Source: Pelagibius sp. CAU 1746 (GTDB lineage Bacteria; Pseudomonadota; Alphaproteobacteria; Kiloniellales; Kiloniellaceae). Taken from it: a stretch of 64,000 nucleotides of DNA. Position 1 is the stretch's first letter. Every line of letters begins with the position of its first letter. Shown here piece by piece: positions 5,474 through 26,792 of this stretch. The DNA lies in contig NZ_JBDOQT010000002.1 in assembly GCF_039839785.1 (NCBI RefSeq), forward strand, positions 558,001 through 622,000, written 5' to 3'. The notes beneath the pieces were generated by a model. It saw nothing but the letters and a program-made list of their open reading frames with translations. It had not been told where the DNA came from and ran no database searches. The position numbers and the translations under genes were made by a program.

Positions 5474-5479
5474 CGGGCG

Positions 5480-6319
5480 TCATCCCGTCTCCTGGCGCCG
5501 GCCGAGGCCGAAGGGGTTGGGGTTGAGCACGCGGCCCTGCGCGGCGCCCTGCCAGTCGAGCCCGGCGCGCAGGCGCACCACATCGCCGACGACCACGATG
5601 CAGGGCGGCTCGATGCCCGCCGCGGCGATGTCCTGGGCGCAGGCGCCGAGATTGGTCTCCAGAATCGTCTGCTCCGGCAGCGTCGCCTGGCTGACCACGG
5701 CGACAGGCTCCGAGGGCGCGCGGCCGTGTTCCATCAGCGCGCCGGCGATGGCGGCGATGTGCTTCAGCGCCATGTAGAGGACGATCACCGGCGAGCCCTT
5801 GGCCAACCCCGCCCAGTCGAGGCCGTCGGGCACCGAGCCGCCGACGCCGTGGCCGGTGACGAAGGTGACGGCGGAATTGGTGTCGCGGTGGGTCAGCGGA
5901 ATGCCGGCGTAGGCCAGGCCGCCCAGGCCCGCGGAAATGCCGGGAACGACGCGGAAGGGCACGCCCGCGGCGACCAGGGCCAGGGCCTCCTCCCCGCCGC
6001 GCCCGAAGACGAAGGGGTCGCCGCCTTTCAGGCGCAGCACCCGCTTGCCCTCCTGGGCCAGGCGTACCAGCCGCTGGGAGATGTCGGCCTGCACCGGCGA
6101 GGGCTTGCCGCCGCGCTTGCCGGCATAGATCCTCTCGCAGTCGGGGCGCGCCATGCCAAGGATGGCCGGCCCCACCAGGGCGTCGTAGACCAGGGCGTCG
6201 GCCTGCTTCAGGCCGTTGACGGCGTGCAGGGTCAGCAGCCCCGGGTCTCCGGGACCGGCGCCGACCAGCCACACGCTCCCGGCTTCGAAGGCCGGCAGGG
6301 AAAGTTCGTCCGAATCCAT
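5480..6319 (-). CDS. cobA: Uroporphyrinogen-III C-methyltransferase (SUMT)
   Basis: 279 residues. It makes precorrin-2 from uroporphyrinogen III by SAM-dependent methylation at C2 and C7, the entry step to cobalamin and siroheme. Visible motifs are VWLVGAGPGDPGLLTL at the N-terminus, YDALVG, the VLRLKGGDPFVFGRGGEE loop, VVPGISA and PLTHR. No CysG-type dehydrogenase/chelatase domain is attached, so precorrin-2 can go straight into the corrin pathway. It is followed by cobB with a 6-base gap. Only 70 bases separate its start from that of cbiD, so both promoters must lie in that space. Confidence 0.96.
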   Translation of the reverse strand: MDSDELSLPAFEAGSVWLVGAGPGDPGLLTLHAVNGLKQADALVYDALVGPAILGMARPDCERIYAGKRGGKPSPVQADISQRLVRLAQEGKRVLRLKGGDPFVFGRGGEEALALVAAGVPFRVVPGISAGLGGLAYAGIPLTHRDTNSAVTFVTGHGVGGSVPDGLDWAGLAKGSPVIVLYMALKHIAAIAGALMEHGRAPSEPVAVVSQATLPEQTILETNLGACAQDIAAAGIEPPCIVVVGDVVRLRAGLDWQGAAQGRVLNPNPFGLGRRQETG

Positions 6320-6389
6320 GGAAACTACCCTAGACGCCGCGGTGCGGCTGTCCTAGTCAATGAAAAGCCTCTGCTTGTAAAATAACGAC

Positions 6390-7517
6390 ATGACACGCAA
6401 ACCGGAAGGCGCGTTGCGGCGCGGCTGGACCACGGGAGCCTGCGCCACGGCGGCCACCAAGGCTGCCTACACTGCGCTACTGACCGGACGTTTCCCCGAT
6501 CCGGTGGCCATCACCCTGCCCAAGGGCGAGCAGCCCGCCTTCGCCCTGGCCCGCGAAACCCTGAAAACGGCGGCGGAAGGGGATGGCGGCGAGGCCAGCG
6601 CCGCCATCGTCAAGGACGCCGGCGACGACCCCGACGTCACTCACCTTGCCCTGGTGCAAGCCCGCGTCCGGCACGGGGCGGAAGGCAGCGGCGTCACCTT
6701 CAAGGCCGGCCCCGGCGTCGGCACGGTGACCAAGCCGGGCCTGCCGCTGGCGGTGGGCGAGCCGGCCATCAACCCGGTGCCGCGCCGCATGATGGAGGCG
6801 GTGGTGGCCGAGGTCGCCGCCGACCACGGCGGCAGCGGCGACGTGGAAATCGAAATCTCCATCGACGGCGGCGAGGAACTCGCCAGGAAGACCTGGAACC
6901 CGCGCCTGGGCATCCTGGGCGGCCTGTCGATCCTGGGCACCACCGGAGTGGTGGTGCCCTTCTCCTGTTCCGCCTGGATCCACTCCATCCACCGCGGCAT
7001 CGACGTGGCGCGGGCGACCGGCCTTTCCCATGCCGCCGGCTGCACCGGCTCCACCTCCGAGGCGGCGGTCCAGCGGCTCTACGGCCTGCCCGAGGCCGCG
7101 ATGCTGGATATGGGCGACTTCGCCGGCGGGCTGCTGAAGTACCTGCGGCTGCACCCGCTGCCGCGCCTCACCCTGGCCGGAGGTTTCGGCAAGCTCTGCA
7201 AGCTGGCTGCCGGCCATCTGGATCTTCATTCGGGCCGCAGCCAGGTCGACTTCGATTTGCTGGCGGATCTCCTGAAGGGCCTCGGCGCCAGCGATGCGCT
7301 GGTTACCGAGGCGCGGGGCGCCAACACCGCCAAGCAGGTGCTCGACCTGGCCACGGCCGCCAGGCTGCCGCTGGCCGACGCCGTGGCCGCGCGGGCGCGC
7401 GAGACGGCGCTGGGCGTGCTGGCGCGGCGCGGCGGCGAGGGCGAGACGGCAGTGGAAGTGCTGGTTTTCGATCGGGCTGGCAATCTCGCCGGCAAGGCGG
7501 CAGGGTGGCCCGCGTGA
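6390..7517 (+). CDS. cbiD: Cobalt-precorrin-5B (C1)-methyltransferase CbiD
   Basis: 375 residues. The N-terminal RRGWTTGACATAATKAA and central NPRLGILGGLSILGTTGVVVPFS are signature CbiD segments. CbiD performs C1 methylation linked to loss of acetaldehyde in the oxygen-independent pathway, where aerobic organisms use CobF. In this window it sits beside CobK and with CobN elsewhere, so it serves as the C1 methylase in a mixed pathway. A GTGA overlap couples it to cobK. The start is the ATG after a 70-base divergent gap with cobA. Confidence 0.95.
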   Translation: MTRKPEGALRRGWTTGACATAATKAAYTALLTGRFPDPVAITLPKGEQPAFALARETLKTAAEGDGGEASAAIVKDAGDDPDVTHLALVQARVRHGAEGSGVTFKAGPGVGTVTKPGLPLAVGEPAINPVPRRMMEAVVAEVAADHGGSGDVEIEISIDGGEELARKTWNPRLGILGGLSILGTTGVVVPFSCSAWIHSIHRGIDVARATGLSHAAGCTGSTSEAAVQRLYGLPEAAMLDMGDFAGGLLKYLRLHPLPRLTLAGGFGKLCKLAAGHLDLHSGRSQVDFDLLADLLKGLGASDALVTEARGANTAKQVLDLATAARLPLADAVAARARETALGVLARRGGEGETAVEVLVFDRAGNLAGKAAGWPA

Positions 7518-8278
7518 GCGAAGAGACCATCACCAAGCCGCGGCGGATCCTGCTGCTGGGCGGCACCGGCGACTCCCGCGTCCTGGCCGAGCGTCTCGCG
7601 GGGCGCGGCGACGTGGAAGTGATCTCCTCGCTTGCCGGGCGCACCGAGCAGCCGGCGCCCCTGCCCGGCGCCCTGCGCATCGGCGGCTTCGGCGGCGTCG
7701 CGGCCCTGGCCGACTTCCTGACGCGCGAAGGCATCGACCTGCTGGTGGACGCCACCCACCCCTACGCCGCGCGCATCACCGACAACGCCGCCGCCGCCTG
7801 CCGGCGCGCCGGCACGCCGCGCCTGCTGGTCGAGCGCCCGCCCTGGCAGAAGCGGCCCGGCGACGACTGGATTTCCGTGCCCGATACCGAGGCCGCGGCC
7901 AAGGCCCTGCGGGGATTGGCCGAACGCGTCTTTCTCGCGGTCGGCCGCGGCGAGTTGGAGGCCTTCGCGGGGCTGCCGGACATCTGGTTCCTGGTGCGCA
8001 CGGTCGACGCGCCCGGCGGCAGGCTGCCGCTCGAGAACTACGAGGTGGTGTTGGGCCGCGGCCCCTTCGAGGCCAACGGCGAGCGGGCGCTGTTCCTGCT
8101 GCACGGCATCCAGGCCCTGGTCACCAAGAACTCCGGCGGCGAGGCGACCTACGCCAAGATCGCCGTGGCCCGCGAACTGGGCCTGCCGGTGGTGATGATC
8201 GAGCGCCCGGCGCACGCGGACGGCGAGACGGCGCATTCGGTCGAGGAAGCTTTGGGGTGGATCGAGGCGCGGCTGTAA
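7514..8278 (+). CDS. cobK: Precorrin-6A reductase
   Basis: About 254 residues. An NAD(P)H-dependent reductase of the corrin ring (CobK/CbiJ). The nucleotide-binding start RILLLGGTGDSRVLAERLA, the DATHPYAARITDNA motif and the late TKNSGGEATYAKI segment are diagnostic. I prefer the GTG at 7514, which overlaps the cbiD TGA and has AGGGTGG five bases upstream. An in-frame GTG at 7505 is an alternative that adds three residues. It is the last gene of the cbiD-cobK unit. Aerobic CobK and anaerobic CbiJ are homologous, so sequence alone does not say which substrate (metal-free or cobalt-bound) is used. Confidence 0.95.
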   Translation: MSEETITKPRRILLLGGTGDSRVLAERLAGRGDVEVISSLAGRTEQPAPLPGALRIGGFGGVAALADFLTREGIDLLVDATHPYAARITDNAAAACRRAGTPRLLVERPPWQKRPGDDWISVPDTEAAAKALRGLAERVFLAVGRGELEAFAGLPDIWFLVRTVDAPGGRLPLENYEVVLGRGPFEANGERALFLLHGIQALVTKNSGGEATYAKIAVARELGLPVVMIERPAHADGETAHSVEEALGWIEARL

Positions 8279-8435: not shown

Positions 8436-10286
8436 ATGGAACGCCGTTTGGCCGCAATTCTGGCCGCTGACGCCGTCGGATACAGCCGCTTCATGGCCCG
8501 TGACGAGGAGGCCGCGCTGGCGGCGCTCTCCGAACGGCGGAGCGTCATTGACCCGCTCATCGCCGCGCACAACGGTGTGATCTTCGGCTCGGCGGGCGAC
8601 AGCGTCATCGCGGAGTTCCCGAGCTCCGTCGAAGCCGCCCGCTGCGCGGTGGAGATTCAGGAGCGCCTCACGGCGCTCAACGCCGGGCTGCCGGAGGAGC
8701 AGCGGATGCTGTTCCGCATCGGCGTCAGCTTCGGCGATATCATGGAGGAGGATGAAGACTTCTTCGGCGACGGCGTGAACCTGGCCGCGCGGCTGGAAAG
8801 CCTGGCGCCACCCGCCAGCATCTGCATCTCCGCCGCGGTCGCCGAGCAGCTCTCCGGCCCCCTGGCCGCAGCCTTCGCAAAAGCCGGCCGCCATCACCTC
8901 AAGAACCTGCCCAAAGCCGTCGAGGTCTGGTGCTGGCCCGCGCAGCGCGCCGGCCTGCTGCGCCGCAAGGCCGCTGCCGCGAAGCAGGGACAGCTTTTCG
9001 CCGCGACCCTGCTCGCCGCGGTGGCCGCCGCCGTCGTCGTGCTGTACCTGCGCGAGCCTGCGGAAGACGCGGTGCCTTCGGGCCCCCGAATCGCCGTCCT
9101 GCCGTTCACCAATATCGGCGGCAACACGGAGGATGCCTACTTCAGCGTCGGCCTGACCAACGACATCAACACGCTGTTGTCGAAGTTCTCGAACCTCTTC
9201 GTCATCGCACCCCATTCGGTGAGGAGCTTCGGCGAGGGTGCGGGCTGTGCGCGGGTGCGCGAGGAACTGGGTGCGGACTACATTCTTGCCGGTACGGTAC
9301 GGCGCTCTCAGAACAAGCTGCGCGTCACCACTTCCTTCACCGACGCCAAGACCTGCCGCCGGCTGGATTCGCCCGGGCCATTCGACCGGGACCTCAGCGC
9401 CGACAACATCCTCGACCTGCAGCTCGAGATCGCCAAGAAGGTGGTGGCGGAGGTCGGCTCGGCCGACGCCCCGCTCTTCAATGCCCAGGTCCAGAACGCC
9501 ATTCGGCGCAAGGCGCCGGACAGCCTGGAAGCCTACGACTGCGTCCTGCTGTCCTATTGGTTCTACGAGACCTTCGAGGCGCAACGCCATCGCCGGGCGC
9601 GCGCCTGTCTGGAGCGCGCCGTCGAGATCGACCCCGGTTATTCGCTCGGCTGGTCGCGGCTGGCCTTCAGCTACATCGAGTCCAAGAAGTACGCAATCGA
9701 CACGCCCTCCGACTGGGCGGAGCGCAGCCGCGCCGCGGCGGAGCGGGCCATCGACCTCGATCCCGACAACCCCGATGCCTACTATGCGCTCGCCATTCTC
9801 AGCCAGGTGACCGGCCAGGACCGGACGGTGTTCCGGAACTTCGCCGAGAAAGCCATCGCCCTGAACCCGAACGACGCCTTCGTCCTGGCCGACCTGGGCC
9901 TCTGGATGGGCTATTCCGGCGCCTGGAAGCAGGGCGAGGAGTGGGTGACCCGCGCCAAGCTGATCAACCCCAAACACCAGAGCTGGGTGGATTACATCTG
10001 GCACCTTCACGCCTACCTGGAAGGCGACTACGAGACGGCGCGCGATGTCGCAGTGAAGATGAACCTGCCCGGCAACTACATGGTCCAGGCCAGCCTCACC
10101 GCGGCCTATGCGATGAACGGCGAACAGGCGAAAGCCGAACAGGCACTCGCGCACCTGCTGAAAATCCGCCCCGACTACCCGGCGGACCCGCGTGCGCCCT
10201 TCCGCAGCCGCGGCATGCCCGAGGAACTCATCGAAGGCCTGATGGAAGGCCTGCGCAAAGCCGGCCTGGACGTGCCGCCACAGTGA
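8436..10286 (+). CDS. Class III cyclase with membrane segment, TolB-like and TPR regions
   Basis: 616 residues. Residues 1-168 are a class III nucleotide cyclase domain (LAAILAADAVGYSRFM). The metal Asp residues D12 and D55 and transition-state N115 and R119 are present, and D108 fills one purine-selecting position. The Lys expected four residues before D55 is Gly51, so substrate choice is uncertain. One membrane helix spans about 187-205. It is followed by an AVLPFTNIGG segment typical of TolB-like/FlgO-like modules (about 218-330) and TPR-type helices to the end. The cyclase domain should be cytoplasmic and the C-terminal part periplasmic if the helix spans the membrane. A GGGAGG ribosome site supports the ATG. 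It is transcribed alone and ends at a terminator. Confidence 0.85.
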   Translation: MERRLAAILAADAVGYSRFMARDEEAALAALSERRSVIDPLIAAHNGVIFGSAGDSVIAEFPSSVEAARCAVEIQERLTALNAGLPEEQRMLFRIGVSFGDIMEEDEDFFGDGVNLAARLESLAPPASICISAAVAEQLSGPLAAAFAKAGRHHLKNLPKAVEVWCWPAQRAGLLRRKAAAAKQGQLFAATLLAAVAAAVVVLYLREPAEDAVPSGPRIAVLPFTNIGGNTEDAYFSVGLTNDINTLLSKFSNLFVIAPHSVRSFGEGAGCARVREELGADYILAGTVRRSQNKLRVTTSFTDAKTCRRLDSPGPFDRDLSADNILDLQLEIAKKVVAEVGSADAPLFNAQVQNAIRRKAPDSLEAYDCVLLSYWFYETFEAQRHRRARACLERAVEIDPGYSLGWSRLAFSYIESKKYAIDTPSDWAERSRAAAERAIDLDPDNPDAYYALAILSQVTGQDRTVFRNFAEKAIALNPNDAFVLADLGLWMGYSGAWKQGEEWVTRAKLINPKHQSWVDYIWHLHAYLEGDYETARDVAVKMNLPGNYMVQASLTAAYAMNGEQAKAEQALAHLLKIRPDYPADPRAPFRSRGMPEELIEGLMEGLRKAGLDVPPQ

Positions 10287-13498: not shown

Positions 13499-13810
13499 AT
13501 GCATAGCGTCTTAGTGCGTTTCGCGGCGCCGGCCCTGACCGCAGCGGCGGCCCTCACAGCCGGCACGGCGGGGGCGGAGGAAAAGCGCGGCGCGGTCCTC
13601 GCCAACACCTGCTTCTCCTGCCACGGCACCGACGGCCACAGCGCCGGCGCCATGCCCTCCATCGCCGGCAAGTCGGCCGACTACATCGTCGAGACCTTGA
13701 AACGCTTCCGCAGCGGCGACAAGGCTTCGACGGTGATGGTCCGTATCGCCAAGGGGTTCACCGACGACGAAATCGTGGCCCTGGCGGACTACTTCAGCGC
13801 CGGCAACTAG
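13499..13810 (+). CDS. fccA: Cytochrome c subunit of flavocytochrome c sulfide dehydrogenase
   Basis: 103 residues. Signal peptide of about 24 residues ending GTAGA, then a single haem-binding site, TCFSCHG. Met in the GAMPSIAG segment is the likely second haem ligand, as in class I cytochromes of the FccA/SoxE type. A GGGAGG ribosome site lies 8 bases before the ATG at 13499, and the longer upstream frame lacks coding character. The next gene, 13 bases on, encodes the FAD subunit. The pair should oxidise sulfide in the periplasm and hand electrons to a soluble cytochrome c. Single-haem subunits like this one are common outside purple sulfur bacteria. Confidence 0.88.
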   Translation: MHSVLVRFAAPALTAAAALTAGTAGAEEKRGAVLANTCFSCHGTDGHSAGAMPSIAGKSADYIVETLKRFRSGDKASTVMVRIAKGFTDDEIVALADYFSAGN

Positions 13811-13823
13811 GAGGACTCCCGCC

Positions 13824-15110
13824 ATGACCCGCAAGACCTCCGCGATCGGCCGCCGCGGCTTCAACAAGCTGCTCGCCGCCTCCACCGCCGCCGTCACCCT
13901 GGCCGCTCCCTTCGTCGCGCGGGGCGCCGCCGCCAAGGTGGTGGTCGTCGGTGGCGGCTTCGGCGGCGCCACGGCGGCAAAATACCTGCGCCGCTTCGAC
14001 AGCTCCCTGAGCGTCGAACTGGTCGAGCCCAACGCGAGCTTCGTCACCTGCCCCTTCAGCAACACCGTCATCGGCGGGCTCAATCCCATCGGGCGCGTCA
14101 CCCACGGCTACCAGGGTCTGCGCGGCCACGGTGTCGTCGTGGCCCACGATACGGCCGCCGCCGTCGACGCGGACAAGCGCGAGGTCCGGCTCGCCGGCGG
14201 CGCGCGCCTGGCCTACGACCGGCTCATCGTCTCGCCGGGGATCGACTTCAAGTGGGGCGCCGTCGAGGGCGCGGAAGAATCGATCATCGGCCGGATTCCC
14301 CACGCCTGGAAGGCCGGAGCGCAAACCACGCTGCTGCGCCGCCAGTTGGAGGCCATGCCCGACGGCGGCGTCTTCGTGATCTCACCGCCGGTCAATCCCT
14401 TCCGCTGCCCGCCGGGGCCGGGCGAACGCATCAGTCTGGCCGCCCATTACTTCAAGACCCATAAGCCGCGCTCGAAGATCCTGGTCCTCGACCCCAAGGA
14501 GAAGTTCTCCAAAGAAGGGCTTTTCCGGCAGGGCTGGGCCGAACTCTACGGCGACATGATCGAGTACCGCAGCCTCAACGACGACGGCCGCGTGGTGCGG
14601 GTCGATGCCGCGAGCATGACGCTGCATACCGATTTCGATTCGGTGCGGGGCGACGTCATCAACTTCATTCCGCCGCAGCGCGCCGGCCGGATCGCCCAGG
14701 ACGCCGGGCTGACCGATGAAACCGGCTGGTGTCCGGTCCATCAGGCCGATTTCGAATCGGCGCTGCTGCCCGGCATCCACGTCATCGGCGATGCCTCCAT
14801 CGCCGCCCCCATGCCGAAGTCCGGCTTCGCCGCCAGCACCCAGGCAAAGGTCTGCGCCGCCGCCATCGTGGCCAAGCTGCGCGGCGAGGCGCCGGGCGCC
14901 CCCAAGTTCGTCAACACCTGCTACAGCCTGGTGGCGCCGGATTACGGCATCTCGGTGGCCGCGGTCTACAACGTCGAAGACGGCAAGATCGTCGCGGTGG
15001 AGGGGGCCGGCGGCCTCAGCCCCATGGAGGCCGACCACAGCTTCCGCCAGCAGGAGGCCGACTACGCCCGCGGCTGGTACGACAGCATCACGCAGGACAT
15101 CTTTGCCTGA
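13824..15110 (+). CDS. fccB: FAD subunit of flavocytochrome c sulfide dehydrogenase
   Basis: 428 residues. A twin-arginine signal (GRRGFNKLLAAS) is followed by a Rossmann FAD motif, VVVVGGGFGGATAAKYLRR. Two cysteines match the redox-active pair of FccB: one in VTCPFSN and one in FVNTCYSLV. A second dinucleotide region and IHVIGDASIAAPMPKSGFAA complete the family pattern. Length and domain order fit FccB/SoxF rather than SQR, because Tat export and the cytochrome partner gene indicate a periplasmic soluble complex. It converts sulfide to sulfur or polysulfide. It is followed at 146 bases by the cNMP-binding gene on the same strand. Confidence 0.92.
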   Translation: MTRKTSAIGRRGFNKLLAASTAAVTLAAPFVARGAAAKVVVVGGGFGGATAAKYLRRFDSSLSVELVEPNASFVTCPFSNTVIGGLNPIGRVTHGYQGLRGHGVVVAHDTAAAVDADKREVRLAGGARLAYDRLIVSPGIDFKWGAVEGAEESIIGRIPHAWKAGAQTTLLRRQLEAMPDGGVFVISPPVNPFRCPPGPGERISLAAHYFKTHKPRSKILVLDPKEKFSKEGLFRQGWAELYGDMIEYRSLNDDGRVVRVDAASMTLHTDFDSVRGDVINFIPPQRAGRIAQDAGLTDETGWCPVHQADFESALLPGIHVIGDASIAAPMPKSGFAASTQAKVCAAAIVAKLRGEAPGAPKFVNTCYSLVAPDYGISVAAVYNVEDGKIVAVEGAGGLSPMEADHSFRQQEADYARGWYDSITQDIFA

Positions 15111-15256: not shown

Positions 15257-15628
15257 ATGAAACGGCACAGCTTCAAGGACGGTGAGGTCATTTTCCGCGA
15301 AAACGACCCCAGCGACGCGGCCTATCTCATCATGGAGGGTAAGGTCGAGATCATTCACGGGCGAAGAAGCGAGGCGAATACAACCGTCGCCGTGCTCGGC
15401 CGGGGTGAGTATTTCGGCGAGATGGGCGTGATCGACGACAAGCCGCGCTCCGCCACCGCCCGCGCCAAGGGCGAGACGGCCTGCATGTCGGTGAGCCGGG
15501 ATGAATTCATGGACATGCTGCTCAACCGGCCAGAGGAGTCCATTGAATTGCTGAAGGTTCTCTTCGAGCGCCTGCGCAAGGCCAACGACCGGCTCATGCT
15601 GATGGAGAAGTCCGGCGGGACGGCCTGA
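15257..15628 (+). CDS. Stand-alone cyclic-nucleotide-binding domain protein
   Basis: 123 residues, almost entirely one cNMP-binding beta-roll: FKDGEVIFRENDPSDAAYLIMEG, VLGRGEYFGEMGVID, then the phosphate-binding cassette with Arg (DKPRSATARA). The conserved Glu of FGEMG and that Arg indicate real cyclic nucleotide binding. No DNA-binding helix-turn-helix or enzymatic domain is attached. The C-terminal helices (SIELLKVLFERLRKANDRL) may dimerise or contact a partner. A GGGGAG ribosome site precedes the ATG. It lies 78 bases before the truncated haemoglobin and cyclase genes, so it is a candidate receptor for the cAMP they control. Confidence 0.85.
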   Translation: MKRHSFKDGEVIFRENDPSDAAYLIMEGKVEIIHGRRSEANTTVAVLGRGEYFGEMGVIDDKPRSATARAKGETACMSVSRDEFMDMLLNRPEESIELLKVLFERLRKANDRLMLMEKSGGTA

Positions 15629-15706
15629 CGAAGCCCCTCTATCGTCTGGGGCGAAGAGACGTGCTAGGCTTTCCGCGCTTCAGGAAGAGGGGCGGGATGT
15701 AGGCGA

Positions 15707-16069
15707 ATGAAAGCGACGATGTTCGACCGCTACGGAGGGTTCGGCACCGTGCATCGCGTTGTCCTGGCCTTCTACGACAGGATGCTCGATTCGGACATCG
15801 TCGGCCCCTACTTCGACGACGTCGACATGGCCGCCCTGGTCGATCATCAGACCAAGTTCATCTCCCAAGTCATGGGCGGCCCCGCCTCCTACACCAACGA
15901 GGTGTTGGAGCAGGTTCACCGCAACATCGGCGTGACCGACGAAGCCTTCGACGAAATGGCGGGCATCCTGCAGCGGACGCTGCGGGAGTTCGAGTTCAAG
16001 GAAGAGGACGTGCACAGCGTCATTGCCGACATCAACAGCCGGCGCTCCTACATCGTTTCCCGCAAGTAG
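15707..16069 (+). CDS. Group I truncated haemoglobin
   Basis: 120 residues, the 2/2 globin length. It matches trHbN throughout: FDRYGGFGTVHRVVLAFYDRML with Tyr23 at the B10 position, PYFDDVDMAALVDHQTKF, the GGPASYT turn, and His71 (EQVHRNIGV) as proximal haem ligand. TrHb I proteins bind O2 and NO and often dioxygenate NO or sense gases. The stop codon lies 12 bases before the adenylate cyclase ATG, so the two are almost certainly co-transcribed. The start is the ATG at 15707 with a GAGGGG site upstream. A second in-frame ATG occurs at residue 5. Confidence 0.92.
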   Translation: MKATMFDRYGGFGTVHRVVLAFYDRMLDSDIVGPYFDDVDMAALVDHQTKFISQVMGGPASYTNEVLEQVHRNIGVTDEAFDEMAGILQRTLREFEFKEEDVHSVIADINSRRSYIVSRK

Positions 16070-16081
16070 GCGTCCCGCCCC

Positions 16082-17164
16082 ATGAGTTTCCAGCTCGATA
16101 CCTTCAACAAGTTGCTGCTGGAGACCGTCGGCGTCGGCTTGGTGATCGCGACCTATCCCGACCTGCGCCCGGTGTTCCGCAACCACCTGGTGCTGGAGTG
16201 GTTTCCCGGCGCGGCGGACAGCGCCGGCGGCGGCCTGGAAGCGCAGTTCCCCGACATCGACATCCCGGCGCTGCAGGCGGCACTGGAGGAAAACGAGACC
16301 TACAAGGCCTCCCTGGAGGTCAAGGTGCGGCGGCGCATCCATGCTCTCTCCCTGGCCGCGACCAGGGCCGACATGGCCGACGGTTCCTGGGTCATCATCG
16401 AACTGCACAACGTCACCAAGGTGCAGGAACTGGAGTCCATGATTTCCTCCTACTCCGGCATGGTCGAGCGGCAGAACCGCATGCTGAAGAAGGAGAAGGA
16501 ACGCGCCGAGAAGCTGTTGCTCAACATCATGCCGGAGTCGGTCTACCAGGAACTCAAGACCTTCGGCGTGACCACGCCGCAACGCTTCGACGAGGCTTCG
16601 ATCCTGATGCTCGACTTCGTCGGTTTCACCACCCTGTCGGTGGAGCACGATCCCGCCACCATCGTTTCGGAGCTGAACGACATCTTCACCGCCTTCGACC
16701 GCATCGCGGAGCACCAGGGCTGCGAGCGCATCAAGACCATGGGCGACGCCTATGTCGCGGTCAGCGGGCTGCCGGAGGCAAACCCCGACCACGCCCAGGC
16801 CATCGCGCGCCTGGCGCTGCTGTGCCTGCGCTACCTGAAGCGGCGCAACGAGACCCAGAAGATCAAGTGGCACTGCCGTATCGGCCTGGCGCCGGGCCCG
16901 GTGATCGGCTCCGTGGTCGGCATCCAGAAATACGTCTACGACATCTTCGGTCCCGGCATCAACCTAGCGGCCCGCCTGGAGGCCCTCGCCGGCCCGATGG
17001 AGATTCTGCTCAGCGAGGAGATGCACCCGCGCCTGCACGCCCAGTTCCAGGTCGAGGATTGCGGCGAGGCCGAGGTACGCGGCTTCGGGCCGCGCCGGAT
17101 CTACCGGCTGCTGGGCGCCGACGAACTGCACCTGCAAAACGATCCCGCGGCTTTCGGGAACTGA
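16082..17164 (+). CDS. Soluble adenylate cyclase with PAS-like sensor and signalling helix
   Basis: 360 residues. Residues 1-115 look like a PAS fold (FNKLLLETVGVGLVIATYPD, ending SWVIIELHNVTKVQELE). A coiled signalling helix runs about 115-155 (MLKKEKERAEKLLLNIMPESV), then a class III cyclase domain. All key residues are present: metal ligands D178 and D222, adenine-selecting K218 and D287, transition-state N294 and R298. It should therefore make cAMP. There is no membrane segment. Twelve bases separate it from the truncated haemoglobin gene, suggesting that haem-gas chemistry feeds into cyclase activity, though no direct contact is shown. It is convergent with the metallo-hydrolase gene. 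Confidence 0.9.
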   Translation: MSFQLDTFNKLLLETVGVGLVIATYPDLRPVFRNHLVLEWFPGAADSAGGGLEAQFPDIDIPALQAALEENETYKASLEVKVRRRIHALSLAATRADMADGSWVIIELHNVTKVQELESMISSYSGMVERQNRMLKKEKERAEKLLLNIMPESVYQELKTFGVTTPQRFDEASILMLDFVGFTTLSVEHDPATIVSELNDIFTAFDRIAEHQGCERIKTMGDAYVAVSGLPEANPDHAQAIARLALLCLRYLKRRNETQKIKWHCRIGLAPGPVIGSVVGIQKYVYDIFGPGINLAARLEALAGPMEILLSEEMHPRLHAQFQVEDCGEAEVRGFGPRRIYRLLGADELHLQNDPAAFGN

Positions 17165-18125: not shown

Positions 18126-18890
18126 TCAGGCGGTCCGCTTGGGGCGCAACACGTGGACGTGCTTAGGGTCGTAGAGCTTCGAATCGATGAAGTCGGTCTC
18201 GCCCAACACGCGGCCGACCAGAATGAGGGCGGTGCGGGTGATCTTGGCGGCGCGCACCTTCCCGCGGATGTCGGCGAGGGTGCCGCGGATGATCTGCTGG
18301 TCCGGCCAGGAGGCACGGTAGACGACTGCCACCGGGCAGTCGGCGCCGTAGTGCGGCGTCAGTTCCGTCTCGACGTGCTTCAGGTTGCGGATCGAGAGGT
18401 GGATGGCCAGCGTCGCGCCGGACTTGCCGAGGGTCGCCAGGTCCTCGCCCTCGGGCATGGCCGAGGCCTTCATGGTGGTGCGCGTGAGGATCACCGTCTG
18501 GCTCACCTCCGGCAGCGTCAATTCGCTCTCCAGCGCCGCGGCCGCCGCGGCATAGGCCGGCACGCCGGGGACGATCTCGAAGGGTATCTCCAGCTTGCGC
18601 AGGCGGCGGATCTGCTCGGCGATGGCGCCGTAGAGCGAGGGATCGCCGGAGTGCACCCGCGCCACGTCCTGGCCCGCTGCCTGCGCCTCTTCGATCTCGG
18701 CCAGGATCTCGTCCAGGGTCATGGGCGCGGTGTCCTTCACCGTCGCGCCTTCCGGCGCGAAGGCCACCACCTCCTCCGGCACCAGGGAGCCCGCGTAGAG
18801 CACCACGGGGCAGCGCGCAATGAGGTCGCGCCCGCGCAGGGTGATGAGGTCGGGCGCGCCGGGGCCGGCGCCGATGAAATAGACGGTCAT
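18126..18890 (-). CDS. cobM: Precorrin-4 C11-methyltransferase
   Basis: 254 residues. SAM-dependent tetrapyrrole methylase fold: [22 protein letters not shown] at the N-terminus, the YAGSLVP motif special to CobM/CbiF, the [11 protein letters not shown] loop and [16 protein letters not shown]. It methylates C11 after ring contraction. Its ATG overlaps the stop of the cbiG/cobJ gene by 4 bases (ATGA). It is the last cobalamin gene of the long minus-strand operon. Confidence 0.96.
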
Positions 18891-20707
18891 GCCGCATCCT
18901 CGGAGTTCTTTTGGGCTTTCCCCGCGTAGCCGCGGGGTGTGTAAACCCAGGCGCCGCCATCCGACCGTGCGACGCGTTTCGTCTCGCTGGAGCCGACCAG
19001 CACCACGGTCAGCATGTCGACCTTGTCGGGCGTCAGCTCGGCGAGATCGACGACAGTGACGGTCTCCCCCTCGCGGCCCAGGTTGCGCGCCAGCACCACC
19101 GGCGTGTCGCCGGGCCGGTGCTTGCGCAGGATTTCCACCGCCTCGGCCAGTTGCCGGGTGCGCCGCTTGGAAGCCGGATTGTAGAAGGCGATGATAAAGT
19201 CCCCCTCCGCCGCGGCCTTGAGGCGGCGCTGGATCGCCTCCCAGGGGGTCAGCAGATCGGAGAGCGAGATGGTGCAGAAGTCGTGGCCGAGGGGCGCCCC
19301 GGCGCGCGCCGCCGCGGCCTGCAGCGCCGAGACCCCGGGCATGACGGTGACATCGACACGGGACCAGTCGGCGCGTCCGCCGCGCTCCAGCAGCTCGAAG
19401 ACCAGGGTCGCCATGGCGTAGATGCCGGGATCGCCGGAGCAGACCAGCGCCACATCGCGCCCCTCGGCGGCGAGGTCGAGGGCCACGCGCACGCGTTTTT
19501 CCTCCTCGCCCAGCTCGTAGCCGTGGCGCGCCTTGCCGGCGGCCAGCGGCCCCAGCAGATCGAGATAGAGGCCGTAGCCGACCAGGTCCGTGGCGCGCAG
19601 TACGGCGGTTTCCACCTCCGGTGTGCGCCAGACCGCATCGCCCGGGCCGGTGCCGATGACGCTCAAGGTGCCGCGCCCGCGCCCGAGCCGGGCCGCGTCT
19701 ACAACGGCGGGGGCCAGGGCGACGGCGCAGGTGGCGCGCTTGGACTTGGTCTTGGCGACCACCAGCTCGCCCTGCGCGCCGGCGGCGGCCAGGGCCGCGC
19801 CTTCGGCGACGCCGTGGCAGCCGACCTCGCGGAACACCAAGCCGGAAGGATTGGCGAGGCGCGGCGTCTCCGCTTCCAGCGTCGCGGCGTCGAAGAAGCG
19901 CGCCGGCACGCCCAGCGACTCTGCGAGCGCCAGCACCGCCGCCTCGTCCGCTTTCACGTCGATGGAGAAGACCCCGGCGACGGCCAGCGGCGAGAGGCCG
20001 GCTGCGGCCAGGGTGCCGCGCACCAGGGTTTCCAGCTCTTCGGGCGCGGCATGGCGCTCACAGCCGACGCCGAGGCAGAGCTTCGCCGGGTGGTAGACCA
20101 GGCGCTCGGGAGCCGGGCTGCCGGTTTGCTCCGTGATCTCGATCGCCAGCGGCCCGTCTCCGGCAAGCGGCAAGCCGCTGTCGGCCAGCCAGGGCGCCTC
20201 GCCGTCCAGCCGCACCGTCTTGCCGCCCAGCAGCGCCGCGGCGAAGCCCTTGTAGTCTCCGGGATTGCCGAGACGCCAGCCACTCGGCGGCGCGTCCAGG
20301 GCCACGGCGAAGCGGCGGTCGCCGGCGGTGGTGACGGCGGCTTCGATGCCGAGCACTTCCGCGATGACCTTCGCCAGCTCGTTGGCGCCCCGGTGGCCGC
20401 CCAGCAGCGGCACCGCCGCGCCGCCGTCCTCGGCCACGGCCACCACCGGCGGCTCGGCGCGCTTGTCGGCAACCAGCGGTGCCAGAGCACGGATCAGCGT
20501 GCCTGCAGCGCAGCAGCCGATGACGGGCCGGCCTTCCAGGAAGGCGGCCTGCACCGCCGCGGTGAAATCGTCGTAGAAGACGTCGGCCGCCTCGACCCGT
20601 CCGCGCCTGGCGTGGATCAGCGCGTTCGGCAAGACAGCCTTGAGGTGCGCGGCCAGCGCCGCGCCGCCCGGCGTCAGAACGATAAAGGCGGGAGCGAGAG
20701 TCAGCAT
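18887..20707 (-). CDS. cobJ: CbiG/CobE - CobJ fusion (precorrin-3B C17-methyltransferase)
   Basis: 606 residues joining two activities. Residues 1-340 resemble CbiG: an N-terminal region with [14 protein letters not shown] and [13 protein letters not shown], then a CobE-like region with [11 protein letters not shown] and [12 protein letters not shown]. Residues from about 345 are a methylase, starting [17 protein letters not shown], with [23 protein letters not shown] and [12 protein letters not shown], typical of CobJ/CbiH. CbiG opens the delta-lactone in the oxygen-independent route and CobJ methylates C17 with ring contraction, so the fusion puts consecutive steps in one chain. Overlaps: 7 bases with cobI, 4 with cobM. 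Confidence 0.94.
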
Positions 20708-21408
20708 GTCCAGGCCTCCCCGCGCCGGTGCACCAGGATCATGGAGAAATAGGGCGCGCTGTCTTCTTCCATCTCGGCCAGCGGCAGGATGCGCTGCTCG
20801 TCGAGGGTGGCGCGCTCCACGTAGCGGGCGCGGTCGAGCAGGCCCAGGAGGCCCAGCACCTTGCGCACCTTCTGCAGATGGCGGCCGACCTTGATGATGG
20901 CCGCCGCCTCGGTGTCGCGCAGCAGGCCGGCCAGCACCTGCGGCTCCAGGGTCGCGGGGACGACGTTCAGCACGTCGTTGCGCGCGGCCAGCGGCGCGCC
21001 CAGCACCGCCGCGCAGGCGGTGAGCGACGACACGCCGGGCACCACCTCGACCTTGTGGGTCTCGGCGACGCGCCCGAAGAGGTACATGAAGGAGCCGTAG
21101 AAGAAGGGATCGCCCTCGCAGAGCGCCACCACGTCGCGGCCCTCGGCAAGATGCCCGCCGATTTCCTCCGCCGCCCAGTCGTAAACCTCCTGGGCGGGAA
21201 AGCGCGCCGCCACCATGGGCATGCGGATCGCGATCTCGCTCTGCCCGCCGGGCAGGTGCGGGGCGACGATGGCGCGCGCCAGGCTATCGCCCTCTTCCGG
21301 CGCCGGATAGGCCAGCACCGGCGCGGCCTGCAAGAGACGCAGCGCCTTCAGGGTGATGAGCTCGGGGTCGCCGGGGCCGATGCCGAGGCCGTAGAGGGTG
21401 CCGGTCAT
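20701..21408 (-). CDS. cobI: Precorrin-2 C20-methyltransferase
   Basis: 235 residues from the ATG at 21408, which overlaps the cobL stop (ATGA). Motifs: GTLYGLGIGPGDPELITLKAL, then YPAPEEGDSLAR, ALCEGDPFFYGSFMYL and VVPGVSSLTACAAVLG. These are the CobI/CbiL pattern. The enzyme adds the C20 methyl that is later lost at ring contraction. The open frame extends upstream of 21408, but that part is antiparallel low-complexity sequence overlapping cobL, so I reject the longer start. Confidence 0.96.
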   Translation of the reverse strand: MTGTLYGLGIGPGDPELITLKALRLLQAAPVLAYPAPEEGDSLARAIVAPHLPGGQSEIAIRMPMVAARFPAQEVYDWAAEEIGGHLAEGRDVVALCEGDPFFYGSFMYLFGRVAETHKVEVVPGVSSLTACAAVLGAPLAARNDVLNVVPATLEPQVLAGLLRDTEAAAIIKVGRHLQKVRKVLGLLGLLDRARYVERATLDEQRILPLAEMEEDSAPYFSMILVHRRGEAWTC

Positions 21409-22622
21409 GTCTTGACGCCCGCATACTGGGTGACGGGCATCATCGGCCGCCAGCCGCGGAAGGGGCCGACCGGCTCGGCGCGGGAGACGGCGATGCGGGT
21501 CAGGCTGCCGCCGTGCTGCTTCTGCCAGTCGAGCAGCACCGCCTCGCCCTCCAGCGTCACGGCGTTGGCGACCAGGCGGCCGCCGGGCTTCAGCTTGGTC
21601 CAGCAGACTTCGATCAGGCCGGGGTTGGAGACGCCGCCGCCGATGAAGACGGCATCGGGCGCCTCCAGTCCGTAGAGCGCCTCCGGCGCCTCGCCGGCGG
21701 CGATCTGCAGCAGCGGCGCGCCGAGGCTCTCGGCGTTCTCCGCGATCAGGGCGCGGCGTTCCGCCTTGCGCTCGACGGCAACGGCGCGGGCGCGCGGCGC
21801 GGCGCGCATCCATTCCACCGCGACCGAGCCGCAGCCGGCGCCCACGTCCCACAGCAACTGCCCCGCTACCGGCATGAGCGCAGAGAGCGTGGCCGCGCGC
21901 ACCTCCCGCTTGGTCATCTGGCCGTCGTGGCGGAAGGCCGCGTCCGGCAGGCCCGGCGTGCGCGGCAGCAGCGGCGCGTCCGGCGCGGCGATGCAGTCGA
22001 CGGCAATGGTATTGAGGTCGGCAACGTCATTGGCCGACCAGGTAACGGCAGTTCCCTCGACGCAGCGTTCCTTCTCGCCGTCCAGGTGCTCCAGCAGCGT
22101 CATATGGCTCTCGCCGTAACCGCGCTCGGTCAGCAGTGCGGCGACGGCGGCGGGAGTCGCCGCATCTTCGCTGAGGATGAGCAGCTTGGCGTTCGGTTGG
22201 ATGTAAGGATGCAGCATCGCGAGGGGGCGGCCGTGCAGCGTGAGACAATCGATCTCCGCCAGGGGCCAACCGATCCGGGCGGCCGACAGGGTGAAAGCCG
22301 ACCGCCCGGGCAGGATGGCAATCTCGCTACGCCGGATTCGTTTAAGCAGCGAGACACCGACCCCATACCACAAAGGATCGCCGGACGCCAAAACGCAAAC
22401 GCGTGTGCCGCGGCGAGATTCGATTTCATCGAGCAGCGCGGAGAGCGGCGACGGCCAGGCAAGACGCTCGCGATCGTCCCGCGGCAGCATCGCCAGATGA
22501 CGTTCGCCGCCGACGAAGACTTGCGCATCGTCAACCAGGGCGCGCGCCGGCGCGGTGAGACCCGCAAGCCCGTCCTCGCCGATGCCGACGATGGAGAGCC
22601 AGGGTTTCGTCTCGTCCAACAT
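21405..22622 (-). CDS. cobL: Precorrin-6B C5,15-methyltransferase (decarboxylating)
   Basis: 405 residues, a CbiE-CbiT fusion. Residues 1-205 are the CbiE tetrapyrrole methylase (LSIVGIGEDGLAGLTAPAR, FVGGERHL, LASGDPLWYGVG, LPGRSAFTLSAARIGW). Residues from about 225 are the CbiT SAM methylase and decarboxylase (LLWDVGAGCGSVAVEWMR, AVFIGGGVSNPGLI). It methylates C5 and C15 and removes the acetate carboxyl at C12. Five bases separate it from cobH upstream and it overlaps cobI downstream. Confidence 0.96.
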   Translation of the reverse strand: MLDETKPWLSIVGIGEDGLAGLTAPARALVDDAQVFVGGERHLAMLPRDDRERLAWPSPLSALLDEIESRRGTRVCVLASGDPLWYGVGVSLLKRIRRSEIAILPGRSAFTLSAARIGWPLAEIDCLTLHGRPLAMLHPYIQPNAKLLILSEDAATPAAVAALLTERGYGESHMTLLEHLDGEKERCVEGTAVTWSANDVADLNTIAVDCIAAPDAPLLPRTPGLPDAAFRHDGQMTKREVRAATLSALMPVAGQLLWDVGAGCGSVAVEWMRAAPRARAVAVERKAERRALIAENAESLGAPLLQIAAGEAPEALYGLEAPDAVFIGGGVSNPGLIEVCWTKLKPGGRLVANAVTLEGEAVLLDWQKQHGGSLTRIAVSRAEPVGPFRGWRPMMPVTQYAGVKT

Positions 22623-22627
22623 GACGC

Positions 22628-23278
22628 TCAGAGTCCCGCGCGCGCCAGCGCGTTCACCGCCGCCGCCGCCATGGCACTGCCGCCGCGCCGGCCGCGCAGC
22701 GTCAGGTAAGGCACTTCCAGATGAGCGGCTATCAGCGCGTCCTTCGATTCGGCGGCACCCACGAAGCCGACGGGAAAGGCGAGAATGACCGCCGGGCGCG
22801 GCGCGCCCTGCGCGAGCGTTTCCATCAGACGGTAAAGCGCCGTCGGGGCGTTGCCGATGGCCACCACCGCGCCGCGCAGCTCGTCCGACCAGAGATCGAC
22901 GGCGGCGGCCGAACGCGTGGTGCCGAGGCGCTTGGCGAGATCGGGCGTGCGCGGGTCGTTCAAGGTGCAGATCACCCGGTTGCCGGCAGGCAGGCGCGCG
23001 CGGGTGACGCCGTCGGCCACCATCTCGCAGTCCGCCAGCACGGTCGCGCCGGCCTGCAGGGCCGCCCGGCCCGCGCCCAGCACGTCGCCCGAATAGGCGA
23101 GGTCCGGCGCGATCTCCGGCATGCCGCAGGCATGCACCACCCTGAGCGCGATCTCGCCGAGGTCTTCCGGCAGGGCCGAAAGGTCGGTCTCCGCGCGCAC
23201 GATCTCGAAGGAGCGGCGGGTGATCTCCTGAGGGTCGCGGATGTAGTCCTGATCGGGATCGTTGAGGGGCGTGTTCAT
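22628..23278 (-). CDS. cobH: Precorrin-8X methylmutase
   Basis: 216 residues. It moves the C11 methyl to C12, giving hydrogenobyrinate or cobyrinate. Seen are IRDPQEITRRSFEIVRAE, the active-site His in RVVHACGMPEIA, DCEMVADGV and the late GFVGAAESKDAL with GRRGGSAMAAA. Length is normal for CobH/CbiC. A 145-base gap holding a palindromic repeat separates it from cbiX upstream, so it may be partly uncoupled from the cobW-to-cbiX half of the operon. Confidence 0.96.
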   Translation of the reverse strand: MNTPLNDPDQDYIRDPQEITRRSFEIVRAETDLSALPEDLGEIALRVVHACGMPEIAPDLAYSGDVLGAGRAALQAGATVLADCEMVADGVTRARLPAGNRVICTLNDPRTPDLAKRLGTTRSAAAVDLWSDELRGAVVAIGNAPTALYRLMETLAQGAPRPAVILAFPVGFVGAAESKDALIAAHLEVPYLTLRGRRGGSAMAAAAVNALARAGL

Positions 23279-23297
23279 GTCGCTACCCTAGACTCGG

Positions 23298-23390
23298 TCG
23301 TCACCCTCGGGCTTGACCCGAGGGTCCATTTCTCCGCAAGCCCGGTGTCTGCCACAACCATGGATGCTCGGGTCAAGCCCGAGCATGACA
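23298..23390. repeat. Paired CTTGA-loop palindromic intergenic repeat
   Basis: Two hairpins in inverted arrangement: 8-base arms at 23304-23311 and 23317-23324 with loop CTTGA, and 9-base arms at 23364-23372 and 23378-23386 with loop TCAAG. Flanking GTC/GAC-type ends match each other. Elements of this shape are widespread between genes in Alphaproteobacteria. It lies between cbiX and cobH inside the cobalamin operon and could form a structured RNA or modulate downstream expression. Confidence 0.75.
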
Positions 23391-23423
23391 GTCGGTGTTT
23401 GTGGTGGCCGCCGGAGCACATGC

Positions 23424-24521
23424 TTACGCCGTCTTCTTCTTCATGCTGACCGGCCCGTGCGGGTGGTCGGCGTGGGGATAGGGGTGATGATGGTGGTCAT
23501 GCCCGTGACTGTGGCCATGATCGTGACTGTGGTCATGCCCGTGACTGTGGCCATGATCGTGCGAATGATCATGGTTGTGATGGCCATGGTCGTGGCTGTG
23601 ATCATGGTCATGGTCATGGCCATTGCCCGCCGGGCCGGTGCCGATGCCCTCGACGTGGTGGTGATGGCTTTCCTGGGCCAGGCCGACCTCCGCCTCGAAG
23701 CCCAGCACCTGCTCGCGGTACTTGCAGAGCTTGCAGTTCATCAGGTTCTCGCCGTCCAGGATCTCCTGCACCCGCTCGGCGAAGGCGTCCAGCACCGCCG
23801 GATGATCGTTCAGGTAACCTGCCTTGACGAACTCAATCTCCGGATGGCGCGCGGCGACTTGGTCGGTGTAGTCGTAGATGCGCTTCACCAGGATGCCGGT
23901 GAAGAGGAAATAGGGAAAGACGACGATGCGCCTGTAGCCGAGCTTCGCCGCGTGCTCCAGGCCCGGCTCCACCAGGGGAAAAGTGACGCCGGAATAGCAG
24001 GTCTCGCCCCAGCCGAAGCCGAAACCTTCCCACAGCAGGCGCATGACCTTGGCGACGTTGGAATTGGCATCGGGATCGGACGCGCCGCGGCCCACCACCA
24101 TCAGCAGGGTCTCGTGGCGCGGCACATCGCCGCCCCCAGCGCCATTGGCCGCTTCCAGGGCCTGCTCGATACGCGCGGCGGCAGCCTTGATCAGCTTGGG
24201 GTCGATGGCCAGCTCGCGGCCGTAGTCGATGGTCATCTCCGGGTGCTGGGCCTGGTAGGTATTCAGCACCGAGGGGATGTCGTTCTTGGCGTGGCCGGCG
24301 GCGAAGAGCATGCCGGGCACCGCCAGACAGCGGGTCACGCCCTTCTCGCGCAACTTGTCGAGCCCGCTGCGGATGATCGGGGTGGCGAACTCCAGGAAGC
24401 CGCTCTCGACTTCGTACTGGGGCAGACGTTCGCGGATGCCGCGCGCCACGGCCTCGAACTCGCGCACCGCGCCCTCGTCGCGGCTGCCGTGCCCGCAGAC
24501 CATTACACCGATCTTGCTCAT
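23424..24521 (-). CDS. cbiX: Long-form sirohydrochlorin cobaltochelatase CbiX with histidine-rich tail
   Basis: 365 residues. Two chelatase half-domains: residues 1-130 (IGVMVCGHGSRDEGAVREFE, FLEFATPIIRSG, VPGMLFAAGHAKNDIP) and about 130-255 (LLMVVGRGASDPDANSN, VVFPYFLFTGILVKRI). Then MNCKLC (about 261-266), the M-x-C-x-x-C motif that binds an Fe-S cluster in Bacillus megaterium CbiX. The C-terminal 80 residues contain about thirty histidines in repeats of DHSHDHGHSHGH, a likely cobalt store. It inserts cobalt early, into sirohydrochlorin. The ATG at 24521 has a GGAG site. The gene sits in an operon that also encodes the late cobaltochelatase CobN. Confidence 0.93.
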   Translation of the reverse strand: MSKIGVMVCGHGSRDEGAVREFEAVARGIRERLPQYEVESGFLEFATPIIRSGLDKLREKGVTRCLAVPGMLFAAGHAKNDIPSVLNTYQAQHPEMTIDYGRELAIDPKLIKAAAARIEQALEAANGAGGGDVPRHETLLMVVGRGASDPDANSNVAKVMRLLWEGFGFGWGETCYSGVTFPLVEPGLEHAAKLGYRRIVVFPYFLFTGILVKRIYDYTDQVAARHPEIEFVKAGYLNDHPAVLDAFAERVQEILDGENLMNCKLCKYREQVLGFEAEVGLAQESHHHHVEGIGTGPAGNGHDHDHDHSHDHGHHNHDHSHDHGHSHGHDHSHDHGHSHGHDHHHHPYPHADHPHGPVSMKKKTA

Positions 24522-24600
24522 GTGTTTCTCCTCTACGCCTTCTGGCAACGCCTGCCCTCGCCTCGGCCGGGAGGAACGGCTCGCTTCGTTGCGGCGGACT

Positions 24601-26142
24601 TTACGGGGCCATCCGGGGGCGGGGCAAAGGGAAATCGGCCACCTCCCCCGCTCTCTCGGCCCTCCGCGCGATATCCAAGACCCGGTCGAGGTCCAGGTGC
24701 GCCTCCAAATGCGCCGCGAGCCGGTCCAGCACCGCCTCGATCTGGGCGTCATAGGCCAAGCCGGAGGCCGCACGGTCCTTCAAAGCGCCCAGGAAAGCGG
24801 CGCGGAAGCCGTCGGCGGCGAAGAGTCCGTGCAGGTAGCAGCCGGCCACCTTGCCGTCGGCCGAGACGGCGCCTTCCCAGCGTCCATCGAGATCGAGGAA
24901 GGGCCGCGTCAGGCCGGGCCCTTCGGTGACGCCGACGTGCATCTCATAGCCTTGCAGGGCGGCGGCGCTCTCCAGGTGGATGCCCCGCACCTCCTTCAGC
25001 GCCTTGTCGCCGGTGAGGACGGTTTCGACGTCGAGCAGGCCGAGACCCTCGGCCTCCCGGCCCGCCGGCCCCTCGATGCCCTCGGGGTCCGATACCCTGC
25101 GGCCCAGCATCTGGTAGCCGCCGCAGACCCCCAGCACGCGGCCGCCGCGGCGCAGGTGCGCCGCCAGGTCGATGTCCCACCCCTGCTGACGCAGGAAGTC
25201 CAGATCGGCCAGCGTCGCCTTGGAACCCGGCAGGATGACGAGGTCGGCGTCGCCCGGCAGGGCGCGGCCCGCCTCGACGAAGTCCACCGCCACGTCGGGC
25301 TCGGCAATCAGGGGGTCCAGATCGTCGAAGTTGGCGATGCGGGCGAGCTGCGGCACCGCCACCTTGATCTCGCGGCCCTCGGCGGCTTCCGCGCGCGCCA
25401 CTTGTGTACGAGACAGGGCGACCGCGTCCTCCGCCGGCAGCTTCGCGGCCTCCGGAAAGAAGGGCACCACGCCCAGCGACGGCCAGCCGGTCCGCGCGGT
25501 GATGATCGCCAGGCCCTCGTCGAAGAGGCTGCCGTCGCCGCGGAACTTGTTCACCACGTAGCCGGCGACGCGGCCCGCCTCGGCCTCGCCCAGCACCGCG
25601 TGGCTGCCCACCAGGGTGGCGATGACGCCGCCGCGGTCGATGTCGGCCACCAGGATCACCGGCAGGTCGGCGGCCTCGGCAAAGCCCATGTTGGCGATGT
25701 CGCCCTGGCGCAGGTTCACCTCCGCCGGGCTGCCCGCGCCTTCGACAATCACCAGATCAGCCTCATCCCCGAGGCGCCGGAAACTCTCCAGCACCCTGGG
25801 CAGCAACTCGCCCTTCATCGCCTGATAGTCTCGTGCCTTGGCATTGCCGAGGATCTTCCCCTGCACCACCACCTGGGCGCCGACCTCGCTCTGCGGCTTC
25901 AGCAGCACCGGGTTCATGTCGGTGGTGGCGGGGACACCGCAGGCGCGCGCCTGCAGCGCCTGGGCGCGGCCGATCTCGCCACCGTCCGCCGTCACCGCGG
26001 CGTTGTTGGACATGTTCTGCGGCTTGAAGGGCCGCACCTTGAGGCCGCGCCGGGTGAAGGCGCGGCACAGCCCGGCCACCAGCAGGGACTTGCCGACGTC
26101 GGAGCCGGTTCCCTGCACCATGATGGCCGGAGTCTTCTCCAT
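24601..26142 (-). CDS. cobQ: Cobyric acid synthase
   Basis: 513 residues. It amidates the b, d, e and g side chains of adenosylcobyrinic a,c-diamide. The N-terminal dethiobiotin-synthetase-like domain has [20 protein letters not shown] and the [13 protein letters not shown] segment. The C-terminal glutaminase domain has [15 protein letters not shown] with catalytic Cys at about residue 340 and a late His in CYLHGLF. Size is typical. Its ATG overlaps the cobO stop by one base (TGATG). A 79-base gap follows before cbiX. Confidence 0.97.
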
Positions 26143-26792
26143 CAGAACTCGATGCCCAGTTGCGCCTTCACGCCCTGCTCGCGGAAGGGATGCTTCACCT
26201 GGGTCATTTCGGTCACCAGGTCGGCGGCCTCGATCAGCGGCTCCTTGGCGTTGCGGCCGGTGACGATGACGTGCAGCATTTCCGGGCGGCCCTCCAGGAA
26301 GGCGACGACCTCCTCCAGCGGCAGGTAGTCGTAGCGCAGCACGATGTTCAGCTCGTCCAGCAGGATCATGTCGTAGGGCCTGCCCTCTTTAGAGCTGGCT
26401 TCGCCCCGGCAGGCGTCGATCATTTCCTTGGCCATCTCCCAGGCGCCCTTGGCGGCGGCGATGTCGCGGGCGCGATCCTGGGTGTCCCAGGTGAAGCCCT
26501 CGCCCATGGCCTTGATGGTCACCTGGTCGCCGAACTTCTCCAGGGCGTGGCGCTCGCCGGTCTCCCACTTGCCCTTCACGAACTGGACGATGCCGACTTT
26601 CATGCCGTTGCCCAGCGCGCGGAAGACCAGACCGAAGGCCGCCGTCGACTTGCCCTTGCCCTTGCCGGTATGGACGATCAGCAGGCCCTTCTCCTTGGTC
26701 TTGTCGGCCAGCATCTTCTCCCGCGCGGCCTTGCGCTTCTTCGCCTTCTCGTTGGCGCGGGCGTTGACTTCCTCTTCGGTGAGCTCGGGCAC
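26142..26792 (-). CDS. cobO: Cob(I)yrinic acid a,c-diamide adenosyltransferase
   Basis: 216 residues. ATP:corrinoid adenosyltransferase of the CobA/BtuR type. P-loop [10 protein letters not shown] at about 41-50, then [23 protein letters not shown] and [15 protein letters not shown]. The Lys-rich N-terminal 30 residues are normal for the family. The start is GTG at 26792, sharing a base with the cobN stop (TAGTG), so translation is coupled. Confidence 0.96.

Follow-up and report, generated by a model that had tools for sequence, protein, structure and literature searches.

Can a truncated haemoglobin serve as the separately encoded haem sensor of a nucleotide cyclase? This question is raised by a locus in the window, a 64,000-nucleotide stretch of Pelagibius sp. 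CAU 1746, whose alphaproteobacterial genome of 4.66 Mb has Pelagibius marinus as its closest named relative in our comparison. Bacteria commonly possess truncated haemoglobins, many of which are without an assigned role; to our knowledge, none has been recognised as a dedicated sensor subunit of a signalling enzyme. A first-pass annotation of the window had proposed a circuit of three proteins, in which a globin senses a gas, a cyclase makes cAMP and a small cyclic-nucleotide-binding protein receives it. In our study the first two were found to be a conserved pair in several bacterial classes and the third was found to lie outside it. The globin and the cyclase probably constitute one two-component signalling enzyme, with the globin as a separately encoded haem sensor subunit acting in trans.

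The locus and its gene products

The features of the locus are given below in window coordinates.

15257..15628, plus strand: single-domain cyclic-nucleotide-binding (CNBD) protein, 123 aa (PF00027, E 5e-24), outside the conserved module
15707..16069, plus strand: group I truncated haemoglobin (trHb1), proposed sensor subunit, 120 aa (PF01152, E 1e-16)
15839..15859, plus strand: distal E helix of the globin, VDHQTKF, residues 45-51 (alignment columns of 76 cyclase-coupled globins set against those of 25 reductase-coupled ones)
16082..17164, plus strand: PAS - signalling helix - class III adenylate-type cyclase, proposed output subunit, 360 aa (PF00211, E 8e-44; AlphaFold model; fold matches)
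16130..16411, plus strand: N-terminal PAS-like domain of the cyclase, about residues 17-110, candidate globin-docking or input domain (AlphaFold model; PAS_8 matches in 20 of 40 family members)
16415..16528, plus strand: long signalling helix of the cyclase, residues 112-149 (AlphaFold model; the end of Pfam HNOBA matches weakly)
16574..17119, plus strand: catalytic domain of the cyclase, residues 165-346 (alignment and residue census)

The three open reading frames are consecutive and on one strand, as the first-pass annotation had described them, with 78 nt between the CNBD stop and the globin ATG and, again as described, 12 nt between the globin stop and the cyclase ATG. The residues it had singled out were also found in place, namely the proximal His71 (F8) and B10 Tyr23 of a group I globin and the intact binding residues of the CNBD protein, whose loop (FGE...PRSAT) is canonical. 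It had not mentioned the distal His47 (E10) and Gln48 (E11) of the globin, both of which are invariant. The best solved relatives of this globin in the PDB are the group I cyanoglobins and HbN, and H71, Y23 and the GGP motif are invariant among 40 relatives; judged from its sequence (Bac_globin domain, short 2/2 fold, F8 His, B10 Tyr and GGP), the protein belongs to the group I truncated haemoglobins. The genome encodes 20 class III cyclase domains, 9 CNBD proteins and one globin of the cyclase-coupled family.

Several other genes surround the locus. Cytochrome c and flavocytochrome c sulfide dehydrogenase genes (13499-15110) are placed directly upstream of the CNBD gene; the dehydrogenase was considered as a partner and rejected, being absent near the pair at every other locus, P. 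marinus included. A second class III cyclase domain protein of 616 aa with a long non-cyclase C-terminal part is encoded about 5 kb upstream (8436-10286). Downstream of the cyclase, on the opposite strand, there is a gene for a metallo-beta-lactamase-fold protein, and further on the minus strand a cobalamin biosynthesis cluster (18126-30577; CobM, CobJ fused to part of CbiG, CobN and others).

Conservation of the globin-cyclase pair

Globin relatives were gathered from two sources, a genome collection that gave 65 loci and a set of 385 genomes of Alphaproteobacteria, the class to which the window belongs. Adjacency was tested at 84 loci, which include a few duplicates of the same organism, and the matching cyclase was found directly downstream of the globin at 82 of them. 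The gap between the two genes has a median of 3.5 nt, is 20 nt or less at 69 loci and is absent at 16. The pair was also approached from the other side with a profile built on 40 cyclases and run against the 385 alphaproteobacterial genomes. All 17 full-length members detected (E 1e-129 or better in each case) adjoin a globin, and beyond them the scores drop to E 1e-58 and cover the catalytic domain alone. In the phylum sample the cyclase stood beside the globin in 3 of 3 cases, and the one further genome gained was also paired; among 41 related genomes the pair is adjacent in 10 of 10 testable ones, an eleventh being interrupted by a contig end. No member of the cyclase subfamily lacking a neighbouring globin was found in the class sample of 385 genomes, the phylum sample or the testable relatives. 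The adjacency is far beyond chance, and the globin and the cyclase are a genuine conserved two-gene module. At all 82 paired loci they are separate ORFs, with no natural fusion among them.

The hosts of the pair are alphaproteobacteria, the gammaproteobacteria Marinobacterium and Motiliproteus, and one betaproteobacterial bin, and many of them are marine. A Polyangiaceae bin (L010) that clusters with the Kiloniellaceae is probably a binning error. In-frame stops were noticed in three cyclase genes (one each in L044 and L086, two in L092), where module decay or assembly errors are possible.

The two genes have also been inherited together. Pairwise distances in the globin and cyclase trees are strongly correlated (Mantel r 0.87), none of 1000 permutations reaching as high a value. 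The genome G335 belongs to the same family as the window; its globin and its cyclase are each closest to those of Rhizobiaceae-type pairs, and therefore the pair moves as a unit. The cyclase-coupled globins form a single clade, in which the sole orphan (L088) has no cyclase nearby and is followed by a Rieske oxygenase gene. Among more distant globins, the haloarchaeal plasmid trHb1s (30-42% identity) have no adjacent cyclase at the three loci opened. Another distant trHb1 (37% identity; L135, 7626-8437) overlaps the gene of a 146-aa protein that matches PAS weakly, ends in a helix and has no cyclase domain; the idea of this PAS-only protein as a minimal partner homologous to the cyclase N-terminus was unsupported by profile comparison.

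The haem pocket of the globin

Sister trHb1 groups mostly adjoin a gene for a 2Fe-2S/FAD, ferredoxin-NAD(P)H-type reductase (25 loci), an arrangement that is expected for a globin turning over as an enzyme. Tandem pairs of group I truncated globins with a ferredoxin/FAD reductase gene behind them were also seen (L147-L173, for example L154 at 963-2940) in many genomes of one family (code f188) of the phylum. Comparison by alignment column of the 76 cyclase-coupled with the 25 reductase-coupled globins showed that both groups retain F8 His, B10 Tyr and E11 Gln and that they differ elsewhere on the distal side. Position E7 (residue 44) is Gln in 100% of the reductase-coupled globins and Leu, Met or Ile in the cyclase-coupled ones, whereas E10 (residue 47) is Lys in 96% of the former and His in 100% of the latter. 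His47, Gln48, D46 and K50 are invariant in the cyclase-coupled globins, and D46, T49, K50, D101 and R112 are further marks of this clade. These pocket residues support the view that the cyclase-coupled globin is distinct from the enzyme-type trHb1s.

The E10 His aligns with a His of Synechocystis GlbN which is the known internal distal haem ligand of that protein. Because of this alignment a six-coordinate sensor is proposed, in which the haem iron of the globin would be bound by the E10 His as well.

Architecture of the cyclase

In the AlphaFold model of the cyclase (pLDDT 89) a PAS-like domain is joined by a long helix to the cyclase domain. Structural comparison aligns this chain, from the PAS domain through to the C-terminus, with residues 274-660 of the alpha and 205-608 of the beta chain of human soluble guanylate cyclase (sGC) (271-287 residues aligned, 20-22% identity), the large rmsd reflecting hinge angles. 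The Pfam PAS model PAS_8 is matched by half of the cyclase family (20 of 40), and HNOBA is weakly matched by all 40, in the window protein over the helix only.

Each of the catalytic residues listed by the first-pass annotation is present at its position: D178 and D222 for metal, K218 and D287 for substrate, N294 and R298 for the transition state. K218 and D287 indicate ATP as the likely substrate, and the product would be cAMP. All six residues are kept in 63 of 80 family members, and Arg replaces Lys218 in 6. By these residues the window protein can be classed as a class III adenylate cyclase, a signature that is lost in a minority of its relatives.

Proposed mechanism and alternative explanations

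The pairing suggests that the globin is a separate gas or redox sensor subunit of the cyclase. In the mechanism that we propose, the haem of the truncated globin would bind a diatomic gas (NO, CO or O2) or respond to redox state, and the ligand would probably displace the endogenous distal His47 (E10). Through direct contact between the proteins, the change at the globin would then reach the PAS domain and signalling helix within the cyclase dimer; the altered contact would change the synthesis of cAMP. The pair would thereby work like an sGC in which a separate 2/2 globin takes the place of the haem domain. The pairing and co-inheritance of the genes, the haem pocket particular to this clade, the intact catalytic residues and the sGC-like layout of the cyclase were all observed; that the two proteins touch, which way control runs, what the ligand and product are and whether the haem is six-coordinate are matters that we infer. 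The lack of any natural globin-cyclase fusion and the orphan globin L088 count against the proposal, and so do two further results. In an AlphaFold prediction of an in-frame globin-cyclase read-through, used as a stand-in for the complex, pTM was 0.45 and no interface was resolved. No FNR, NnrR or CRP sites were enriched upstream of the pair, and therefore the surroundings of the genes do not hint at the ligand.

The conserved pairing could also accommodate a globin that protects or otherwise serves the cyclase. It could be an NO dioxygenase or gas scavenger which shields the cyclase or keeps NO or O2 low in its vicinity, co-transcribed with it and exerting no direct control, while the PAS domain of the cyclase senses something else. 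The B10 Tyr and E11 Gln are indeed retained as in the HbN-type NO dioxygenases, and the sister globins that pair with a reductase are themselves probably NO dioxygenases or scavengers. The cyclase-coupled clade, however, has no reductase partner and has lost the E7 Gln and gained the E10 His, and the only enzyme that recurs next to its globin is this particular cyclase, so that we hold this explanation to be unlikely. Still less likely is the complete three-gene circuit of the first-pass annotation, with the CNBD protein as dedicated receptor of the gas-to-cAMP signal. Its appeal lies in the position of the CNBD gene on the same strand, in the canonical loop of its product and in its retention in P. 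marinus (85% identity). Of 41 related genomes, nevertheless, just 2 carry an ortholog, namely those of the window and of P. marinus, all other matches being at most 40% identical, and among the loci examined it stands beside the pair only in these two genomes and their duplicate records; in the congener G746 the pair is present without such an ortholog, and the window genome has 9 CNBD proteins in all. Conserved co-occurrence of the three families in this order, which the first-pass annotation had itself named as the test of its circuit, therefore does not hold, and the CNBD protein is rejected as a third member of the module on distribution; the globin and the cyclase alone, put to the same test, came through. 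The CNBD protein may receive cAMP locally in this genus, outside the conserved system.

A different output has to be considered for one branch of the family. At six loci of Rhodobacterales/Hyphomicrobiales (L035, L041, L046, L058, L066 and L069) and on plasmid pLA3 of Novosphingobium pentaromativorans US6-1 (L195, operon at 4001-7996), a gene for a PAS-PAS-histidine kinase-receiver protein lies directly downstream of the cyclase on the same strand, and it is followed by an OmpR-type response regulator wherever the contig reaches that far. In 7 of 7 such operons the transition-state Asn294 is lost, in some together with Arg298, and the metal and substrate residues mostly stay. The association of a downstream kinase with the lost Asn gives a Fisher p of 1e-6, but only about one or two independent kinase events underlie it, and because independent kinase gains are so few the correlation is not statistical proof of a link. 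Loss of transition-state residues arose about five times on the tree, four of them within the kinase-bearing clade, in whose other members the kinase pair is upstream and divergent and the cyclase is intact in most. An arrangement with a PAS histidine kinase and response regulator divergent upstream was seen in L049 (894-5829) and about 30 other loci, from Ruegeria, other Rhodobacterales and Hyphomicrobiales; an alpha/beta hydrolase and a methyltransferase or homoserine O-succinyltransferase lie between these kinase genes and the pair.

The residue losses suggest that the cyclase domain can lose catalysis and end up as a relay. Among some members of the family, the window protein not being included, the cyclase may be a pseudo-enzyme which still binds nucleotide and hands the globin signal on to the neighbouring PAS-histidine kinase and response regulator, the output being phosphorylation and not cAMP. 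The selective disappearance of N294 and the clustering of the losses in the kinase-bearing clade speak for such a relay; the non-independence of the correlation speaks against it, as does the window cyclase itself, which is intact and has no kinase nearby. We regard it as a serious possibility that falls somewhat short of being probable. More tentative again is the comprehensive proposition that trHb1s serve a class III cyclase family as dedicated, separately encoded sensor subunits, the two together corresponding to an sGC in split form, with one branch in which a dead cyclase relays to a histidine kinase.

Comparison with known systems

For the window pair itself, in which a globin sensor is proposed to act in trans on the cyclase, sGC is a close parallel. 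In sGC an H-NOX domain is followed by PAS/HNOBA, a coiled coil and a class III catalytic domain; the PAS-like domain, long helix and cyclase of the window protein align with it over the whole chain, and a haem protein is the proposed input in our system too. Unlike sGC, the haem domain here is a separate 2/2 globin, no match to H-NOX (PF07700) having been found in the window genome, and the substrate residues are of the adenylate and not the guanylate type. The globin-coupled sensors, in which a 3/3 S-family globin is fused to a diguanylate cyclase, kinase, MCP or other protein, share the idea of a globin haem driving a signalling enzyme. They differ from the present pair, which has a group I 2/2 globin, a class III cyclase and unfused subunits. 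In a survey of such sensors the partners were diguanylate cyclases, chemotaxis proteins, kinases and STAS domains, all of them chimeric with S-family globins (PMC3287990).

The globin resembles Synechocystis GlbN and mycobacterial HbN in fold family, F8 His, B10 Tyr and E11 Gln, and GlbN also in the aligned E10 His, but it differs from both in its fixed cyclase partnership and in the E helix VDHQTKF, which is specific to the cyclase-coupled clade. With the trHb1-reductase operons it shares sister globins and the style of the operon, whereas those have a reductase partner, E7 Gln and E10 Lys. The cyclase has 34-37% identity to Rv1625c-type class III adenylate cyclases over the catalytic domain, with the same spacing of the catalytic residues; in contrast to that type it is soluble and has an N-terminal PAS domain in place of the membrane anchor. 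Control of a class III cyclase by a haem sensor is a known principle, and what would be new is the fold of the sensor and its supply in trans. In a search of 5.39 million open-access papers, no account of a truncated haemoglobin coupled to a nucleotide cyclase came up.

Conclusion

With the trHb1-cyclase pair, our study has identified a case in which the proposed control of cAMP synthesis by a haem sensor in trans can be put to the test. Cultured hosts of the pair are available in Pelagibius, Ruegeria, Marinobacterium and Novosphingobium. If the relay to the histidine kinase is true, the repeated loss of catalytic residues beside the kinase would show a cyclase turning into a signalling scaffold. 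The pair would represent a bacterial parallel to sGC that uses another haem fold.
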